64,000 nucleotides of DNA from Cyclobacteriaceae bacterium (GTDB lineage: Bacteria; Bacteroidota; Bacteroidia; Cytophagales; Cyclobacteriaceae), in the NCBI GenBank assembly GCA_958296015.1, contig CATQIH010000001.1, forward strand, positions 62,001 through 126,000. The letters run 5' to 3'. Position numbers and translations under genes: made by a program. The notes beneath the pieces were generated by a model. It was not told the origin of the DNA. It searched no databases and was given only the letters and a program-made list of their open reading frames with translations. Numbering within the stretch: position 1 is the first letter of the stretch; each line of letters opens with the position of its first letter. Shown in pieces: positions 44,576-51,995 of this stretch.

Positions 44576-44962
44576 GTGGCTCTGAAAGGTACACAAAATC
44601 GGACAATAGTTTTTCATATTCCTGAACCAAGCTACGAAGCGTTTATGCAAGACACTCAGCTAGCCCACCAACAGATTAAGGAAGCTTTTCAAGCTTACCC
44701 TGAACTGTTTCCTAGTGAGATGTCACAAGGGTATACGCTCAACGGTAAGAGTCGGGTATCTAAAAAACTTACGCTGCAACTGCGCAAGATCAAAGTAGAT
44801 GGGATAAGCTATCAGTTGCGGCCCAGCTTTTTGCTACCGGCCATGTGGGCTAAAACCCAAGAGGTATCTAAGCCTTTGTTCCTATTACGCTTGGGTGTAC
44901 CCTTCTGGGCACTCGCCTATGTGTTTGGACGTAATCCCATGTGCCGGGCCGCCGGTTCGTAG
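44576..44962 (+). pseudogene. Transposase N-terminal fragment
   Basis: Encodes NRTIVFHIPEPSYEAFMQDTQLAHQQIKEAF, SKKLTLQLRKIKVDGISYQLRPSFLLPAMWAKTQEVSKPLFLLRLGVPFWALAYVFGRNPM, which I recognise as the start of an unnamed transposase family found in several Bacteroidota and cyanobacteria. The catalytic part is missing; the frame ends just after FGRNPM. Further pieces such as MEEAKQADEQYAALAKQILQ (about 45014-45076) in another frame may be the tail of the same or a second gene. Confidence 0.5.
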
Positions 44963-45205
44963 GCTAGCCGAATGGGTCAAGGAACAGGTGCCTGATATAA
45001 TGAGGAAAAATCAATGGAAGAGGCAAAGCAAGCCGATGAGCAATATGCTGCCCTTGCTAAGCAAATTTTGCAGTAACATTTCTTGTGGAGGCTAGGTAAT
45101 TCCGTGCCGGTCGTGTTGTTTATGTACGAACACCTCATCACAAATGCTTAGCCTTCATACTCAAGCCAACCCTTTGATGGCCATGCTATCACGCATCTGT
45201 AATGA

Positions 45206-45336
45206 ACTATACTACAGTACATTTTCGGTTTGTGAGGACACACGAGGCGTGAGAGCCGTGGGCTGTGCGGGGCGCCCCCTGCCGCCGTGGCCCGATCTTC
45301 ACAGCCCACTTTAAGGCAAATGTACCGTAGCATAGT
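45206..45336. mobile_element. Small palindromic element A (MITE-like, 131 bp)
   Basis: Ends in 19-bp inverted repeats: ACTATACTACAGTACATTT (45206-45224) and the reverse complement of ACTATGCTACGGTACATTT (45318-45336), two mismatches. Inside, a stem GTGGGCTGTG / CACAGCCCAC encloses a GC-rich core containing GCCGCCGTGG at 45281-45290. The arms match element B at 51.1 kb in inverted order while the core keeps the same orientation. No coding capacity. The flanks (44963-45205, 45337-45377) hold decayed sequence only. Confidence 0.7.
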
Positions 45337-45377
45337 AATTGAACATAAGCACAGATAAAGAATCTGCGTAGATAATC

Positions 45378-46310
45378 TTAGTTAAACGACTGCCTGAAGG
45401 CCAAAGGGGAGAGATGGGTCTTGCTTTTGAATAACTTATTGAAAGACTGAGGATGTTCAAAACCTAATGCATACGCAATTTCATTCACGGATAAGTCGGT
45501 GGTTGATAACTTTTCCTTTGCCAGGGCAATTAGCTTGTCGTGTATGAACTGCTGGGTGCTTTGCCCGGTCAATACTTTAAGCAACCGGCTCAGGTAGTTG
45601 GGCGATACATGCAGCGCGTCGGCAATATGATGAACGGTGGGCAATCCTTTGGTTGGCAAATCATCACTTTTGAAGGATGCATCCAGCATTTCTTCCAATC
45701 GGCTTAGAATGGTGTGATTGCTTATCTTCCGGGTGATAAACTGGCGTTCATAGAAACGTTCCGAATAGGTCAGCAACAATTCCAACTGGGCAATGATCAC
45801 ATCCTGACTGAATTTATCAATGTTGGCATGATACTCAGCCTCAATGTTTTGCATGATGCTGGCAAGCATTGCTTCCTCTTTGTCAGAAAGGTGCAGTGCT
45901 TCGTGTAAGCTGTAACTAAAATAATCGTATTGCTTTATTTTTTTTGCCAGAGGCGTATTCCAGAGAAAATCGGGATGAATGAGCAGCAACCATCCTGAGT
46001 GCTCCGGTTTCTCATTTTTATCATACACCACGCTAATCACCTGATTGGGTGCTAAAAAAGCCAGCACGCCCTCGTCAAAATCATACGACTGTTGCCCGTA
46101 TTTCATGCTGGCATTGAACGTCTTTTTCAGCGCAACAGAATAAAAATGATTGATCAGGCTATACTGGCCATCTTCGGGTTGACGTTTTATATCCTCAAAC
46201 TTTATAACACTGATCAACGGGTGTTGTGGCTTGGGCAAATCCATAAAGCGATGGTATTCACCAATGGTTTTGTTCTGATGTGGTTTTATGCCTGTCATGG
46301 TGTTACACAA
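45378..46310 (-). CDS. AraC-family transcriptional regulator
   Basis: 310 residues. The N-terminal cupin-like sensor region is followed by the C-terminal double HTH: LPTVHHIADALHVSPNYLSRLLKVLTGQSTQQFIHDKLIALAKEKLSTTDLSVNEIAYALGFEHPQSFNKLFKSKTHLSPLAFRQSFN. It ends the leftward run of redox genes and lies 107 bases after the aldo/keto reductase. It probably controls that enzyme and neighbours in response to a small molecule. Intact, unlike the truncated relative at 44 kb. Confidence 0.93.
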   Translation of the reverse strand: MCNTMTGIKPHQNKTIGEYHRFMDLPKPQHPLISVIKFEDIKRQPEDGQYSLINHFYSVALKKTFNASMKYGQQSYDFDEGVLAFLAPNQVISVVYDKNEKPEHSGWLLLIHPDFLWNTPLAKKIKQYDYFSYSLHEALHLSDKEEAMLASIMQNIEAEYHANIDKFSQDVIIAQLELLLTYSERFYERQFITRKISNHTILSRLEEMLDASFKSDDLPTKGLPTVHHIADALHVSPNYLSRLLKVLTGQSTQQFIHDKLIALAKEKLSTTDLSVNEIAYALGFEHPQSFNKLFKSKTHLSPLAFRQSFN

Positions 46311-46417
46311 TTGCTATGTATTTCAAAAGAAGAAAGCATACTTGAATAAGATGCTTTCTTTGATTTTTATCTGCGTCATTTTTCGGTTTCATCATTTGTA
46401 CACGAAATGATTTTTAT

Positions 46418-47299
46418 CTATCCCAAAAACGCCATATCTTCTTTGGTCAAGAAGATGTATCTCGCTTGCATGTTCTCTTCTAAGTGCTCTACCGAGGTGG
46501 TGCCCGGTATCGGGAGTATCCAGGCAGATTGATGCAGCAGCCACGCCAGGTTCATCTGCGCCGTAGTGACGCCCTTTTGTTTTGCCAGCTCTTCTATTTT
46601 GTTTTGCCCTTTGGGCAACGAAGTCTGCAAAGAGAAAAAAGGAATCAACGGGATACTGTTTTCCTCGCAGATCGTCAATACTTCCTGGCCGCCTACACCG
46701 CCTTGTGGGCCTGCCATTGTCGTGCGTTGTGCATAACCGTATAAGTTTTGTACGCTGGCGATGTTTCCTTTTTTCATGGCAATTTGTAACTGTTCTGCCG
46801 TCACATTACTGACACCCACATGGTGTATTTTTCCTGCTGCCTGTAGTTCAAACATAGCATCCATGCTCTCTTCAAAACTGGCATCGCTGTTTGGCATCAC
46901 CCGAAAATGCACCAGTGATAACTGCTCCGGCTTGAGTTCCTTCAAATTATTATCAATACTTTGCCGCAGCTCTTCCGGTTTGCTGAACGGCACCCAGCTT
47001 TTATCTTCTTTCCGCCTTGCGCCAATTTTGGTTCCGATGATCAGATCAGCAGGATAAGGGTACAAGGCTTCGCAGATAAGCCGGTTGGTGACGCCTGGTC
47101 CGTAGTAGTCTGCCGTGTCAATATAATTTACGCCTAACGCAACGGCTCTTTTCAATACCGCCAGTGCGCCATTGCGGTCGGCCGGTTCGCCCCATATCTC
47201 TTTTCCGGTGAGGCGCATCGTGCCATAGCCAAACCTGTTTACGGTGGATGGCCGGGCCGAATCTTTACCAATGATGATGGTGGAAGTGTTGTCTGTCAT
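46418..47299 (-). CDS. Aldo/keto reductase
   Basis: 293 residues, a full-length AKR TIM barrel. Landmarks: FGYGTMRLTGKEIWG near the N-terminus, catalytic Asp-Tyr segment NYIDTADYYGPGVTNRLICEAL, the Lys region LIIGTKIGA, the His region LVHFR, and the NADPH-binding C-terminus ILPIPGTTSVEHLEENMQA. It reduces aldehydes or ketones with NADPH in the cytoplasm; the substrate cannot be read from sequence. It lies between an AraC regulator and an SDR gene on the same strand. Confidence 0.94.
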   Translation of the reverse strand: MTDNTSTIIIGKDSARPSTVNRFGYGTMRLTGKEIWGEPADRNGALAVLKRAVALGVNYIDTADYYGPGVTNRLICEALYPYPADLIIGTKIGARRKEDKSWVPFSKPEELRQSIDNNLKELKPEQLSLVHFRVMPNSDASFEESMDAMFELQAAGKIHHVGVSNVTAEQLQIAMKKGNIASVQNLYGYAQRTTMAGPQGGVGGQEVLTICEENSIPLIPFFSLQTSLPKGQNKIEELAKQKGVTTAQMNLAWLLHQSAWILPIPGTTSVEHLEENMQARYIFLTKEDMAFLG

Positions 47300-47356
47300 A
47301 ATTATTATTGTTTAACTATTTGTTTGTGAATCGTATCATAAGAAACTGCCTCCTGT

Positions 47357-48094
47357 TTACCATGGACTAATCCCTGTTTCCGGCGCATTGTCATCGCTAA
47401 AGAATTGCCCTGTTGGGCCATCCGGGCCTAGCACAGCAGCTTTTACCACTCTGGCAGCGGCATCCGGCACGTTGCCAGGACCTGTGTGATCGTTAAAGTC
47501 GGTGGCGGTATAGCCCGGGTCAACGGCATTTACCTTAAAAGAGGTATCTTGCAGGTCAAAAGCCAGCATGATGGTATAAGCATTCAGGGCAGCTTTGGAG
47601 GAAACATAACCGGCAGGCTTCACCTTATAATATATCCAGGTGGGATCATTATGCAAAGTGAGCGAACCCAAGCCTGAGGTAACGTTAACGATTCTTGGTT
47701 CCGGCGACTGCCTTAGCAGGTCTATGAAAGCCTGCGTCACTGCGATGACACCAAAAAAGTTAGTTTCAAATACCTGTCTGAAAACGGTAATATCAGTTTC
47801 TAAGGGAGGCTGCGGTGAAACGCCGTTGATACCCGCATTGTTAATCAGCACATCCAGCACGTTGGTTTTCTGACCAAGCACCTCACGGGCGGCATTTATA
47901 GCATCATGGTTATCTACATCAATCTCTAGGGGTTCCACTTGGGTCAATCCCTCCGACTTTAGCTGACTGACCGCCAGCTGACCTTTTTGCATATCCCGGC
48001 AGCCCAGGTACACATAATACCCTTGCTGTAATAATTGCCTGGCTGTTTCAAAGCCAATGCTTTTGTTTGCTCCTGTTATCAGTACTTTTTTCAT
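47357..48094 (-). CDS. SDR-family oxidoreductase
   Basis: 245 residues from the ATG at 48094; the longer frame from 48160 would add 22 residues that do not look like SDR. Nucleotide loop VLITGANKSIGFETARQL, NNAG motif (LDVLINNAGINGV), catalytic Ser region VNVTSGLGSL and YVSSKAALNAYT as the active-site Tyr-x-x-x-Lys (GYVSSKAAL), then NAVDPGYTATDFN. The TGxxxGxG loop reads TGANKSIG, where Lys replaces the commonly seen Arg of classical SDRs. Cytoplasmic NAD(P)-dependent reductase of unknown substrate in the leftward redox cluster. Confidence 0.93.
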   Translation of the reverse strand: MKKVLITGANKSIGFETARQLLQQGYYVYLGCRDMQKGQLAVSQLKSEGLTQVEPLEIDVDNHDAINAAREVLGQKTNVLDVLINNAGINGVSPQPPLETDITVFRQVFETNFFGVIAVTQAFIDLLRQSPEPRIVNVTSGLGSLTLHNDPTWIYYKVKPAGYVSSKAALNAYTIMLAFDLQDTSFKVNAVDPGYTATDFNDHTGPGNVPDAAARVVKAAVLGPDGPTGQFFSDDNAPETGISPW

Positions 48095-48169
48095 AACTAT
48101 TATTTTAAAATTTATAATAGTGCAAATCTGCTGCTTGCCTGTTTCCCGACTGTAACACATCCACCCGTA

Positions 48170-49060
48170 TTAACGGTACATTTTACGGATATTAGTACGA
48201 TATTCAACAGGGGTTGCACCGGTTTCGCGTTTGAAAAAGCGGTTGAAATAAGAAGCATCCGAAAAGCCAAGGTCATAGGCAATTTCTTTCAAAGAGTTAT
48301 GGGTATGAAAGAGCAAACGCCGGGCTTCCAGTACCAGCCGCTCATGAATATGCTTAATGGCTGGCTTGCCACTTTGTATTTTCACCGTCTCGCTCAAATG
48401 TCCGGCAGAAATATTCAGTAGGGAAGCGTAATCACCTACTTCATGTAGTTCTCGGTAGCATTCATTGATTTTTGCCTGAAAACTTTTCAATAGCAACTTA
48501 TCAATGGAGATTTCGCTATCCTTAAACTGCTCTGTATACAGGCGGCTCAAATAAGTAAGTAATACCGACAGGTAAGCAGCCAGCATACGCTGCTGCCATT
48601 CACTAGGACGCTGATATTCTCCATTAATTTTGGCCAGTATATCTTCTACAAAATTGATATCAGCGTCCGTAAGCAGCAATTCATGACCGTTTTGAGGATT
48701 TTGAATCATCGGCAACTTGCTTAACGAAGCGTTTTCCTGAAACGATAAAAACTCTTTGGTAAAAGCAATACCCGTACTCCACAGCTGTTCAAATCCTTCC
48801 TTTACAATGACCTGATTGGGTCCCGTAAAGTAAATCGTGTTGTCTTCAATGATATAAGGTGCCATGTCTATCCATTGACGGCTGCCAGCCCGCCTGATAA
48901 ATACAATCAGGTAATAATCTTTTCGGTGCGGCATGAGAAGATCTGACTGGTTGGGTAAACTGCCCTCATAGTTATACACTCTAAAATGCTTGTTAGCAAT
49001 TACATCGTCTGGCTCTAAAGAGTAAATAGGAACCTGTTGATTGTCGTTGAGTATATGCAT
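48170..49060 (-). CDS. AraC-family transcriptional regulator
   Basis: 296 residues. The sensor half contains LMPHRKDYYLIVFIRRAGSRQWIDMAPY, a His-containing cupin strand common in this group. The HTH half is SLLNISAGHLSETVKIQSGKPAIKHIHERLVLEARRLLFHTHNSLKEIAYDLGFSDASYFNRFFKRETGATPVEYR. It sits between the SDR gene and two NmrA-like genes, all leftward, with 75 and 39 bases on either side, so it probably regulates this group. Confidence 0.94.
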   Translation of the reverse strand: MHILNDNQQVPIYSLEPDDVIANKHFRVYNYEGSLPNQSDLLMPHRKDYYLIVFIRRAGSRQWIDMAPYIIEDNTIYFTGPNQVIVKEGFEQLWSTGIAFTKEFLSFQENASLSKLPMIQNPQNGHELLLTDADINFVEDILAKINGEYQRPSEWQQRMLAAYLSVLLTYLSRLYTEQFKDSEISIDKLLLKSFQAKINECYRELHEVGDYASLLNISAGHLSETVKIQSGKPAIKHIHERLVLEARRLLFHTHNSLKEIAYDLGFSDASYFNRFFKRETGATPVEYRTNIRKMYR

Positions 49061-49099
49061 TGTTTAAAACTATGAATAACTGTTTGTACGAGTAATTTG

Positions 49100-49987
49100 T
49101 TATTGGTGGCTAAAGGCAGCGGCAAACTCTTTGGCAAATTCTTCCAGTTTGATCTTTCCGGTAAGATCGGGCTTGTGTTTGTAATAGTCTTCAGCCATTT
49201 TACCAGTACGGATAGCGGCATACAGTTCGGTTAATTTTGAAGCGAAATTTGAAGGCATCCCTGCGCTTTCAAGGGCTTTTTTCATGGCTTCATCATCAAT
49301 AAGCTGCCATTGCAGGTCTGGCTTTCCGATGGCTTTGCCCAGTACGCTGGCGATTTCGGCACCGGTGCGCTCATCACTGGCCACATACCTTACTTTTTCT
49401 GCATGGTCGGTTTTTACCAATTCCTCGGCGATTGCGCTGGCAATATCTTCAGGTGCCACCATCGGGGTTTTATCTTTCCCATAATTGGCCATGATGCTGC
49501 CGGTGGCTTTAATGCTGCCAATGAATCCGTATAGATTGTAATAAAACGACGTAGGCCGCATATGGGTGAGGGTAATATCCGGTATTTTATTGAAAAGTTC
49601 TTCCACCCGATGAGAACCTACAATCATCCCGGTACCTTCAGCGTGGTGGGCCCCAAAACTGCTGAGGTGCACCACACGTTTTACGCCAGCATTTTTGATG
49701 GCTTCGGCATAGTTTTTTCCGAGTTCTTCGTAATACTTGATGATATCCGGTTCTCCTTCATAATTGGGCGGAATCATACCATACACCGCTTCGGCTCCGG
49801 TAAAGGTTTTGGTTAAAAAATCTGTGTCCTTTAACGAACCGATCGCTGCCTTTGCTCCAAGAACTTCAATTTCTGTTTTTCGGGCTTCACTGCTGCTAAT
49901 CACTGTGATTGTGTGTCCTTGTGCTACCAATGCTTGCGCAAGTGGCTGACTGATGTGGCCCAATGAGCCTGTAATGACAATTTTCAT
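49100..49987 (-). CDS. NmrA-like atypical SDR (NAD(P)-binding)
   Basis: 295 residues with the N-terminal Rossmann loop KIVITGSLGHISQPLAQALVAQGHTITVIS, then VKRVVHLSSFGAHHAEGTGMI and ITHMRPTSFYYNLYGFI-like segments of the NmrA/HSCARG branch. Such proteins act as quinone reductases, redox sensors or isoflavone-reductase-like enzymes. The loop reads GSLGHIS, so the usual GxxGxxG is kept only partly. Eleven bases separate it from the upstream paralog at 49999, so the two are co-transcribed. Substrate unknown. Confidence 0.9.
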   Translation of the reverse strand: MKIVITGSLGHISQPLAQALVAQGHTITVISSSEARKTEIEVLGAKAAIGSLKDTDFLTKTFTGAEAVYGMIPPNYEGEPDIIKYYEELGKNYAEAIKNAGVKRVVHLSSFGAHHAEGTGMIVGSHRVEELFNKIPDITLTHMRPTSFYYNLYGFIGSIKATGSIMANYGKDKTPMVAPEDIASAIAEELVKTDHAEKVRYVASDERTGAEIASVLGKAIGKPDLQWQLIDDEAMKKALESAGMPSNFASKLTELYAAIRTGKMAEDYYKHKPDLTGKIKLEEFAKEFAAAFSHQ

Positions 49988-49998
49988 AACGATTTATT

Positions 49999-50862
49999 TT
50001 ATAGTGTAAACAAAACATTTAATCCTTCTTTGAGAGCAGTAGGTTTGCGTCCCAGTTTGTTTTCCAGGTCGTCTGTCACCTCAGACTCTTGTCCGTTTTT
50101 GATGTCGAGGTTAAAATCAATGATTTTCTTCACCATGCCTTCCGGCACGCCCCTTTCTTTCATCATGGTCTCAAAGGCAGAGGTTTCAACAGCATGGTAT
50201 TTTACTTTTTTCCCCGACAGCTCGGTGAGTGCGGATGCTACATCATCAAATGAACAGGCTTCATTGCCGGAAAATTGATACGTCTTGTTTTCACATTTCT
50301 CATGCATCAGCACGTTTGCCATCGCTTCACCCTGTTCTTTTCTCAGCGCGTACGCTACTTTGCCGTCGCCCGCCGGTTGAAAAATACCGGTTTCAAATAC
50401 CTGTTTATCCACAAACAACGGAATGGAATCCATATACAAGGCATTTCGGAAAATGGTGTACTTCAGACTACTTTCTTTGATGTAATCTTCGGTCAGAAAG
50501 TGTTCTTTCATCAATTCATTTGATAGCGTCTTCCTGTCGCGTAATGACCGGCTGGTATAGGCAATACAGTCAACCCCGGTTTTTTTGGCAGCATCTACCA
50601 CATTTCTGTGTTGTTGCATCCGGTCGCCTTCGTCACCGGCTGAGATAAGTAAAACAGTATCCACATCCCACATGGCCTTTTCAAGGGCAATGATGTCATC
50701 ATAATCACCCAAGTAGGCATTGAAACCTTTGGATTGAAATTCCGAATGCTTTCCTTCTTTTCTGGTGAGGACAGCAATCTGACTGGAAGGCATTTCTGTC
50801 AATAATTGTTTGATGACGGCACCGCCCAAAATTCCGGTCGCACCTGTGACCAATATTCTCAT
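49999..50862 (-). CDS. NmrA-like atypical SDR (QOR2-like)
   Basis: 287 residues. MRILVTGATGILGGAVIKQLL is a full GxxGxxG loop, followed by DTVLLISAGDEGDRMQQHRNVVDAAKKTGVDCIAYTSRSL, a pattern of NAD(P)H:quinone oxidoreductase 2 (QorB-like) proteins, and FRNALYMDSIPLFV. It reduces quinones or senses redox state with NADPH. First gene of the leftward redox cluster. It resembles the next gene only distantly. Confidence 0.9.
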   Translation of the reverse strand: MRILVTGATGILGGAVIKQLLTEMPSSQIAVLTRKEGKHSEFQSKGFNAYLGDYDDIIALEKAMWDVDTVLLISAGDEGDRMQQHRNVVDAAKKTGVDCIAYTSRSLRDRKTLSNELMKEHFLTEDYIKESSLKYTIFRNALYMDSIPLFVDKQVFETGIFQPAGDGKVAYALRKEQGEAMANVLMHEKCENKTYQFSGNEACSFDDVASALTELSGKKVKYHAVETSAFETMMKERGVPEGMVKKIIDFNLDIKNGQESEVTDDLENKLGRKPTALKEGLNVLFTL

Positions 50863-51070
50863 CGTTTCTACTTTTATTGTTTAGGTAAATGTCCATAGAA
50901 AATAAACAGGATATGTAGCCAAATCTATCCTTGTGTTAGTCAAATCTGATGTGACAAAATCATGGTGGTACATCACCACGAAGATGATGGATATGGGATA
51001 CAACTTTTATTCACACTTCTGATCAATCAGAGCATTTTTGGCGGACATTCGGTGAAGAGGTGGGAAGGGT

Positions 51071-51214
51071 TCCGGAGTATACTCGGTACATTTGCCCGAA
51101 AGTGGGCTGTGGGACACAGCCCACGGCTTCCATACTCTGGTTTGTGCGGGGCACCCCGTGCCGCCGTGGCCCGGTCCCACAAACCGGAAATGTACCGTAG
51201 TATAGTTCCGGAGG
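51071..51214. mobile_element. Small palindromic element B (MITE-like, about 144 bp)
   Basis: Terminal repeats: TCCGGAGTATACTCGGTACA at the left and the reverse complement of CGGAACTATACTACGGTACA at the right. Two hairpins: GTGGGCTGTG-GGA-CACAGCCCAC (51102-51124) and GGTTTGTG...CACAAACC (51139-51185). The second encloses the GC-rich core with GCCGCCGTGG at 51160-51169. The same two stems occur in element A, but there the core sits in the other stem. The rest of the 50863-51301 gap has no recognisable gene. Confidence 0.7.
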
Positions 51215-51301: not shown

Positions 51302-51995
51302 CTACTGTTGAAGACGGTCGAGATATAGATAGGATTCTATAAACTTTCTGTGTTCCGCACTGGTCATTTTCTCCAGCAAATGAAGGGCTGAGATGTAGCT
51401 AGTCAAATTTCCGTTGGATGAACTATATTTTCCGTCTTCTACAAAAGTGACCAGAGAGTCGTCCTGCACTTTCAGGTTTGGATAGTCCTTTTGCAATTGT
51501 TTGCCGCCTCCAATGTAGGTCACTATTTTCCTGCCATCTTCAGTTCCGGAAGCCCCAACGAGTTGGGCACCTGCACAATTGCTCACGGTATATTGAGTTT
51601 CTTTGTCTTTTTCTTTGATAAAATCTACGGTTTTTTGGTTGTGAACCTGGGCATACATATCATAGGCACTCGGTTGTCAATCCTTCTTCGGTGGTGATCG
51701 GATGCTTGGTTTCGGCGATGGTGATCACGTTGAAGAGTTGTTTGCCATCCGGTCCGTCCGGTTTGGAGAAAACATCGGAGGTGGCCACCACTTCTGACTG
51801 AAGTACGCCACTATACATCAAAAGACCGATGGTGGGCAAATCCTCCTTGAATGGTTTTAAATGTTTGGTCAGAGTATCGGAAGCTGTAAAATTTTCTTTT
51901 TTAAGTTCTTCTGCATTTTCTTTTTGTGACTGTGAACTATTAGAATTGCAGCTGTAAAACAGCAGGGCAGTTGAAAGAATAAGTATATATTTCAA
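51302..51995 (-). pseudogene. DJ-1/PfpI-family lipoprotein broken by internal deletion
   Basis: The N-terminal part from the ATG at 51995 has a lipoprotein signal (LSTALLFYSCNSN) and IGLLMYSGVLQSEVVATSDVFSKP, ending in a stop after TTEEGLTTECL. The remaining frame encodes PSAYDMYAQVHNQKTVDF, then YTVSNCAGAQLVGASG with the Cys elbow, down to 51302. At about 51677 roughly 20 codons between GLT and PSAYDMY are missing and the frame shifts. Both halves belong to one protein of about 250 residues, so this is a recent pseudogene of a periplasmic DJ-1-like protein. Confidence 0.75.

Follow-up and report, generated by a model that had tools for sequence, protein, structure and literature searches.

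Bacterial miniature inverted-repeat transposable elements (MITEs) derived from IS4-type insertion sequences (ISs) have terminal repeats in common with those ISs, are flanked by 9-bp target duplications, are non-coding, and can be present as a burst of near-identical copies. In yeast mitochondria, GC-rich palindromes known as GC clusters insert into one another. The BrickBuilt MITE of Porphyromonas gingivalis, in the portion of its description used here, contains a variable 23-nt tandem repeat and has ends resembling IS5 elements (PMC4596501), and the section of a second paper that we draw on presents repetitive extragenic palindromes (REPs) and bacterial interspersed mosaic elements (BIMEs) as GTAG- and CGTC-tagged palindromes, with REPs and their dimers located inside longer palindromes in some species (PMC3733652). 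Here we describe two small palindromic elements, A and B, in a 64,000-nucleotide stretch of a Cyclobacteriaceae genome (the window; contig CATQIH010000001.1, positions 62,001 to 126,000). Both are copies of an IS4-type MITE with two inner hairpins, each of which can hold an optional core; the surprising part is the class of hairpin involved and the fixed junction at which the cores lie.

The family compares with other IS4-derived MITEs in each of the respects given above, with 16 copies in its one near-identical burst, but differs in having two inner hairpins whose tips hold optional modular palindromic cores. Like BrickBuilt, as far as that excerpted account goes, it is a Bacteroidetes MITE with variable internal content, whereas here it is a hairpin-tip palindrome that varies, and the ends correspond to those of an IS4-type IS. 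Its hairpins are short and single or paired, as REPs and BIMEs are in the part of the literature cited; however, what is constant is their tip, on a stem that varies, rather than a tetranucleotide tag at one end, and no association with REP-associated tyrosine transposases (RAYTs) was seen. The yeast GC clusters are alike in being GC-rich nested palindromes, although genome and sequence differ and there is no known link. Literature searches, including searches by hairpin and core strings, returned no described equivalent of this design.

The genome-wide search that a first-pass annotation of the window had proposed places the MITE at about 50 sites in the window's own genome (G000), using B, A, and a covariance model of core-less copies as queries and leaving a few bare hairpin pairs out of the count. 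Each typical copy has ends TATACTACGGTACATTT as terminal inverted repeats, 9-bp target duplications, no coding capacity, and inner hairpins H1 (GTGGGC-TGTG) and H2 (GGTT-TGTG). Among 45 own-genome elements the flanks match at 9/9 positions in 26, at 8/9 in 7, and at fewer in 12, whereas shuffled flanks reach eight or more matching bases in 1.6%; a TA-type duplication, our first idea, was dropped in favor of 9 bp after a comparison of flanks. In 16 copies the element has a 102-bp form in which neither loop is filled; these copies fall into two groups with two differing positions and have target duplications of 9/9 (13 copies) or 8/9 (three copies). Their near-identity suggests a recent burst, and hence recent activity.

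The MITE also has copies in G133, which belongs to a different genus of the family; the one other genome of the window's own genus that was searched (G001) gave no MITE match at E 0.001, plasmid records gave no match to B, and viral contigs gave none to the hairpin pattern or to the end plus H1 stem. An exact 21-base pattern of one core (P, below), run across genome contigs in a set that may omit records close to the window's own genome, matched twice, in Streptomyces and Holophagaceae contigs; both were taken as chance because the flanks seen lack MITE ends and stems. Two MITE copies in G000 (L007, L051) have an internally duplicated hairpin segment, and three MITE-like copies (L080, L083, L086) have an H2 core of another type (CGTCCCGGCGGGGAACC...).

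Two isolated MITE-like ends led to the partner element, a 1213-bp IS present in two copies, on contigs C11 and C26, that are 99.75% identical. The 14 bases TATACTACGGTACA are common to both IS ends and the MITE ends, and one end agrees at 24/26 bases. Model matches of the IS product are to DDE_Tnp_1 and, below the curated cut-off for each of the two transposase halves, to NCBIfam IS4. The IS4 family is defined, in the part of the source used, by Y(2)R(3)E(6)K and D(60-110)D(100-150)E (PMC2266710); here we find YGYRYRIETMFKHLK for the first, and spacings of 63 (D-D) and 108 residues (D-E), counted across a frame break, for the second. A 9-bp duplication, GTGCTCGAT, flanks the C26 copy; its length, like that of the 9/9 flanks at 26 of 45 MITE copies, corresponds to about one helix turn. 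An intact single-open-reading-frame transposase was found in neither copy, the frame being broken in both, which contrasts with the recent MITE burst. We infer that the MITE was mobilized in trans by an IS4-type enzyme.

Within the window, A and B lie in opposite orientations, each framed by a 9-bp target duplication that is exact for B and has one extra base for A, and each is located between open reading frames (simple calls of at least 100 codons; boundaries at 44962 and 45378 around A, and an end at 50862 and a start at 51302 around B). On either strand, single-stranded DNA of both elements folds better than 200 of 200 dinucleotide shuffles (z -4.1 to -6.8). The first-pass description of two palindromic elements is borne out, as is its placement of the core in H1 of A and in H2 of B; GCCGCCGTGGCCCG is mismatch-free at these two places only within the window. 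The further statement that the core is inverted relative to the arms is correct with respect to the arms, but not with respect to the RRGA end of the loop in which it lies, where the orientation is the same in A and B. The order TGTG-RRGA-core-CACA is common to both, and H1 and H2 face opposite ways. Among MITE copies, short loops and small cores are found in both orientations.

The tip TGTG-RRGA-CACA is present in both H1 and H2 of the typical MITE, and a core, if any, lies between RRGA and CACA. Cores are built from modules spaced by GGCA/GCAC repeats: P (CCGGGCCACGGCGG, 14 nt), q (GGGGTGCCCC, a GGGG/CCCC palindrome), and a longer module r found mainly in H1. All four states (neither hairpin filled, H1 only, H2 only, both) occur in G000, and all four occur in G133; double-filled copies are L006, L008, L023, L032, L039, L040 and L041. 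Thus the core is in different stems among copies and not in one stem throughout, empty loops exist, and, as described below, tips of this kind on stand-alone hairpins may likewise carry a palindromic core, all in support of the first-pass interpretation. On a tree of the skeleton (46 rows, 32 of them different, and 91 columns) the H1 state changes at least eight times and the H2 state at least ten. L040, the tree neighbor of B, has both loops filled, and the double-filled L006 and L032 lie on zero-length branches.

Because double-filled copies exist, the core need not have switched stems between A and B, and the simplest reading is that it did not. Rather, we consider it fairly probable that A and B are IS4-moved copies which lost cores independently from a double-filled ancestor. 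An older copy, mobilized in trans by an IS4-family enzyme with 9-bp target duplication, would have had a GC-rich palindromic core of P, r and q modules in both tips; cores or modules would then have been lost independently, as replication slipped across the hairpins and the two cores recombined. B would have lost the core of H1, and A the core of H2 and, from H1, the r module. The core of A has GGCAG before the last module, q. In a mechanical tally that excludes A, GGCAG is present in 7/11 H1 cores and 1/10 H2 cores (Fisher P 0.024), and in 8/12 H1 cores when L006, which the pattern missed, is added (P 0.011). Since the GGCAG cores other than that of A all contain r or an r derivative, this one base suggests that A's core is a core without its lost r, most likely an H1 core shortened in H1 between GGCA repeats.

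Movement of the core from stem to stem within an element, by recombination between the two stems as first proposed, is improbable in our view for this pair, although recombination of this kind does occur. By eye, the interior of L079 (G000:C7:186300-189560) is inverted between its two cores, and L012, L021/L092 and L022 are chimeric single hairpins; the H2 of L080 has a long core of a type otherwise found in H1. What speaks against such a move in A or B is the presence of double-filled copies together with the GGCAG in A, which is typical of long, mostly H1, cores. Two other copies, L005 and L076, have deletions between CCACGGC repeats (by eye), and the core of L079 is interrupted by IS110-type transposase genes or remnants.

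Several observations weigh against independent loss from an IS4-mobilized, double-filled ancestor. Twelve of the 45 elements have no good target duplication, none was seen at the C11 IS copy, and an active transposase was not seen, both IS copies being broken. The tree has low support, with 3/29 inner branches starred, and does not distinguish gain from loss; the double-empty L118 of G133 and, within its clade, the 102-bp form also lie on zero-length branches. The assignment of A's core to H1 is a matter of one base, and GGCAG goes with core length, not with H1 itself: GGCAC is present in the H1-side cores of L012, L020, L040 and L041 and in G133 H1 cores such as that of L114, whereas L080 has GGCAG in H2. 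Leaving out L080, L012, L011 and L014 by hand gives 7/10 against 0/9 (P 0.003), and the association is weaker once they are included. Finally, by eye a single base of microhomology is available for the change from P to an empty loop, a change that plain slippage explains poorly; direct repeats were rejected as its cause for the same reason. We nevertheless find that loss best explains A and B.

The weak covariance-model matches elsewhere in the family that were inspected lack terminal repeats; they are stand-alone hairpins with the tip of the MITE hairpins. H1 and H2 appear to belong to a class of hairpins, with a fixed TGTG-RRGA-CACA tip and a variable, covarying stem, whose members occur on their own across many genomes of the family. 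The empty-tip pattern matches in 139 of 295 genomes, one or two matches being about the level of the reversed pattern; five or more matches are found in 42 of the 295 genomes, and in none with the reversed pattern. In G000 there are 55 matches against one for the reversed pattern, and at least 16 of the 55 are the H1 of 102-bp copies, the H2 of these copies falling outside the pattern. Complementarity of all six stem bases is seen in 66/150 hairpins among the matches listed (shuffled mean 4.2, largest 11 in 1000), and these 66 represent 24 different stems in 23/35 genomes. Of the 19 hairpins with at least 5/6 pairs at 20 loci, 15 are outside open reading frames of at least 120 codons. Rfam gave no match at the gathering score for 8 loci, and 21 sub-threshold matches on 6 loci, mostly to microRNA families. 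Stand-alone hairpins, for example L182 (G000:C3:72939-73330), L180 and L280, and L150-L169 and L235-L246 in other genomes, often have a GG foot and are sometimes clustered.

A filled-tip pattern, limited to GGTY stems and with many matches that are neighboring hairpins, matches in 33 of 390 genomes, the reversed pattern matching once in 390. Inspection by eye leaves 19 tips with a genuine filling, spread over 10 genomes and 5 genera; five are MITE copies (L009 and L010 in G000, three in G133) and the other 14 stand alone (9 genomes, 4 genera), with no MITE ends in the 13 stand-alone stretches that were fetched. Core sequences vary by genus (CCTGCCT..AGGCAGG, CCGGGCC-type, and CCCTCCAGGCCGGA), while the junction RRGA|core|CACA is constant; 18/19 cores start with CC (18/21 with the untidy fillings of G318 and G358) and 13/19 end with GG. 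A two-hairpin unit in G000 is found in both states, empty at L182 and with a 17-nt filling at L277; apart from this, three substitutions and a single gap separate the two (by eye). One loop of L281 has two cores in tandem. Palindromes resembling CCTGCCT..AGGCAGG, and thereby the cores of genera g82, g83 and g70, are found outside hairpins at L231 (G050) and L250 (G266).

These filled tips can be read in the opposite direction, as insertions, with TGTG-RRGA|CACA as an acceptor for short palindromes, served by a putative activity, in MITE and stand-alone hairpins alike. The number of stand-alone filled tips, the constant junction, and the core-like palindrome at L231 outside any hairpin favor this and, together with the L182/L277 pair and the tandem cores of L281, lead us to keep insertion open for the hairpin class. 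On the other hand, no case polarizes gain against loss, no enzyme for core insertion was found, selection by eye biases the set to tidy CC..GG fillings, and the inner stem of an old, longer hairpin, evolving fast, could account for the cores. We regard insertion as the less likely direction overall, and are equally doubtful of the fuller proposal that the conserved tip on covarying stems is a precise, RAYT-free insertion site for unrelated palindromes, with the window elements as a transposable double-hairpin carrier.

We also considered whether these are REP-type elements spread by a RAYT (Y1) transposase, a link that the first-pass annotation had raised. The hairpins are short, repeated, mostly intergenic and have a GG foot, and G000 has 15 Y1 matches. 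In a comparison of 41 genomes, however, Y1_Tnp matches are as common in hairpin-rich (19/21) as in hairpin-poor genomes (17/19), and none is found in G133 or the hairpin-rich G057, where elements or hairpins are present. No intact empty hairpin was seen near any of 30 fetched Y1 loci, a subset of a longer match list, within at most 1.5 kb on each side and with some flanks shortened by contig ends; in this set, hairpins neither flank nor track the transposase. The MITE's 9-bp target duplications and terminal repeats also speak against such an origin. Within the genomes and Y1 loci examined we reject a RAYT/REP origin, which we consider extremely unlikely.

Table 1. Positions of elements A and B and their parts in the window, and of the two partner IS copies in the genome
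Feature	Position	Strand	Sequence or remark	Basis
Element A, MITE copy	45208..45334	-	H1 side at high-coordinate end; G000:C1:107208-107334, strand -	
A left target duplication	45199..45207		GTAATGAAC	flank comparison
A right target duplication	45335..45344		GTAATTGAAC, one inserted T	flank comparison
A terminal inverted repeat, H2 side	45208..45224	+	TATACTACAGTACATTT	
A terminal inverted repeat, H1 side	45318..45334	-	TATGCTACGGTACATTT (minus strand)	
A hairpin H2	45227..45244		AGGA loop empty; one arm 3 bases shorter	by eye
A hairpin H1, core-bearing	45258..45309		stem GTGGGCTGTG / CACAGCCCAC	sequence and fold
A loop and core within H1	45268..45299	-	AAGATCGGGCCACGGCGGCAGGGGGCGCCCCG (minus strand)	
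Element B, MITE copy	51078..51204	+	H1 side first; G000:C1:113078-113204	
B left target duplication	51069..51077		GTTCCGGAG	flank comparison
B right target duplication	51205..51213		GTTCCGGAG	flank comparison
B hairpin H1	51102..51124		empty GGA loop; GTGGGCTGTG-GGA-CACAGCCCAC	sequence
B hairpin H2	51139..51185		GGTTTGTG / CACAAACC; contents GGA and 28-nt P-q core	sequence and fold
IS copy L098	G000:C11:14109-15321			
IS copy L099	G000:C26:83976-85188			

The birth and loss of palindromes have been studied mostly in engineered E. coli constructs. If it is true that palindromes are taken up or shed at one fixed junction in the tip of a common hairpin, then these genomes would provide natural pairs of empty and filled sites in which to study both processes in bacteria. 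As for the hairpin class, its combination of covarying stems with a tip that stays fixed across many genera points to an unrecognized binding site or RNA structure.

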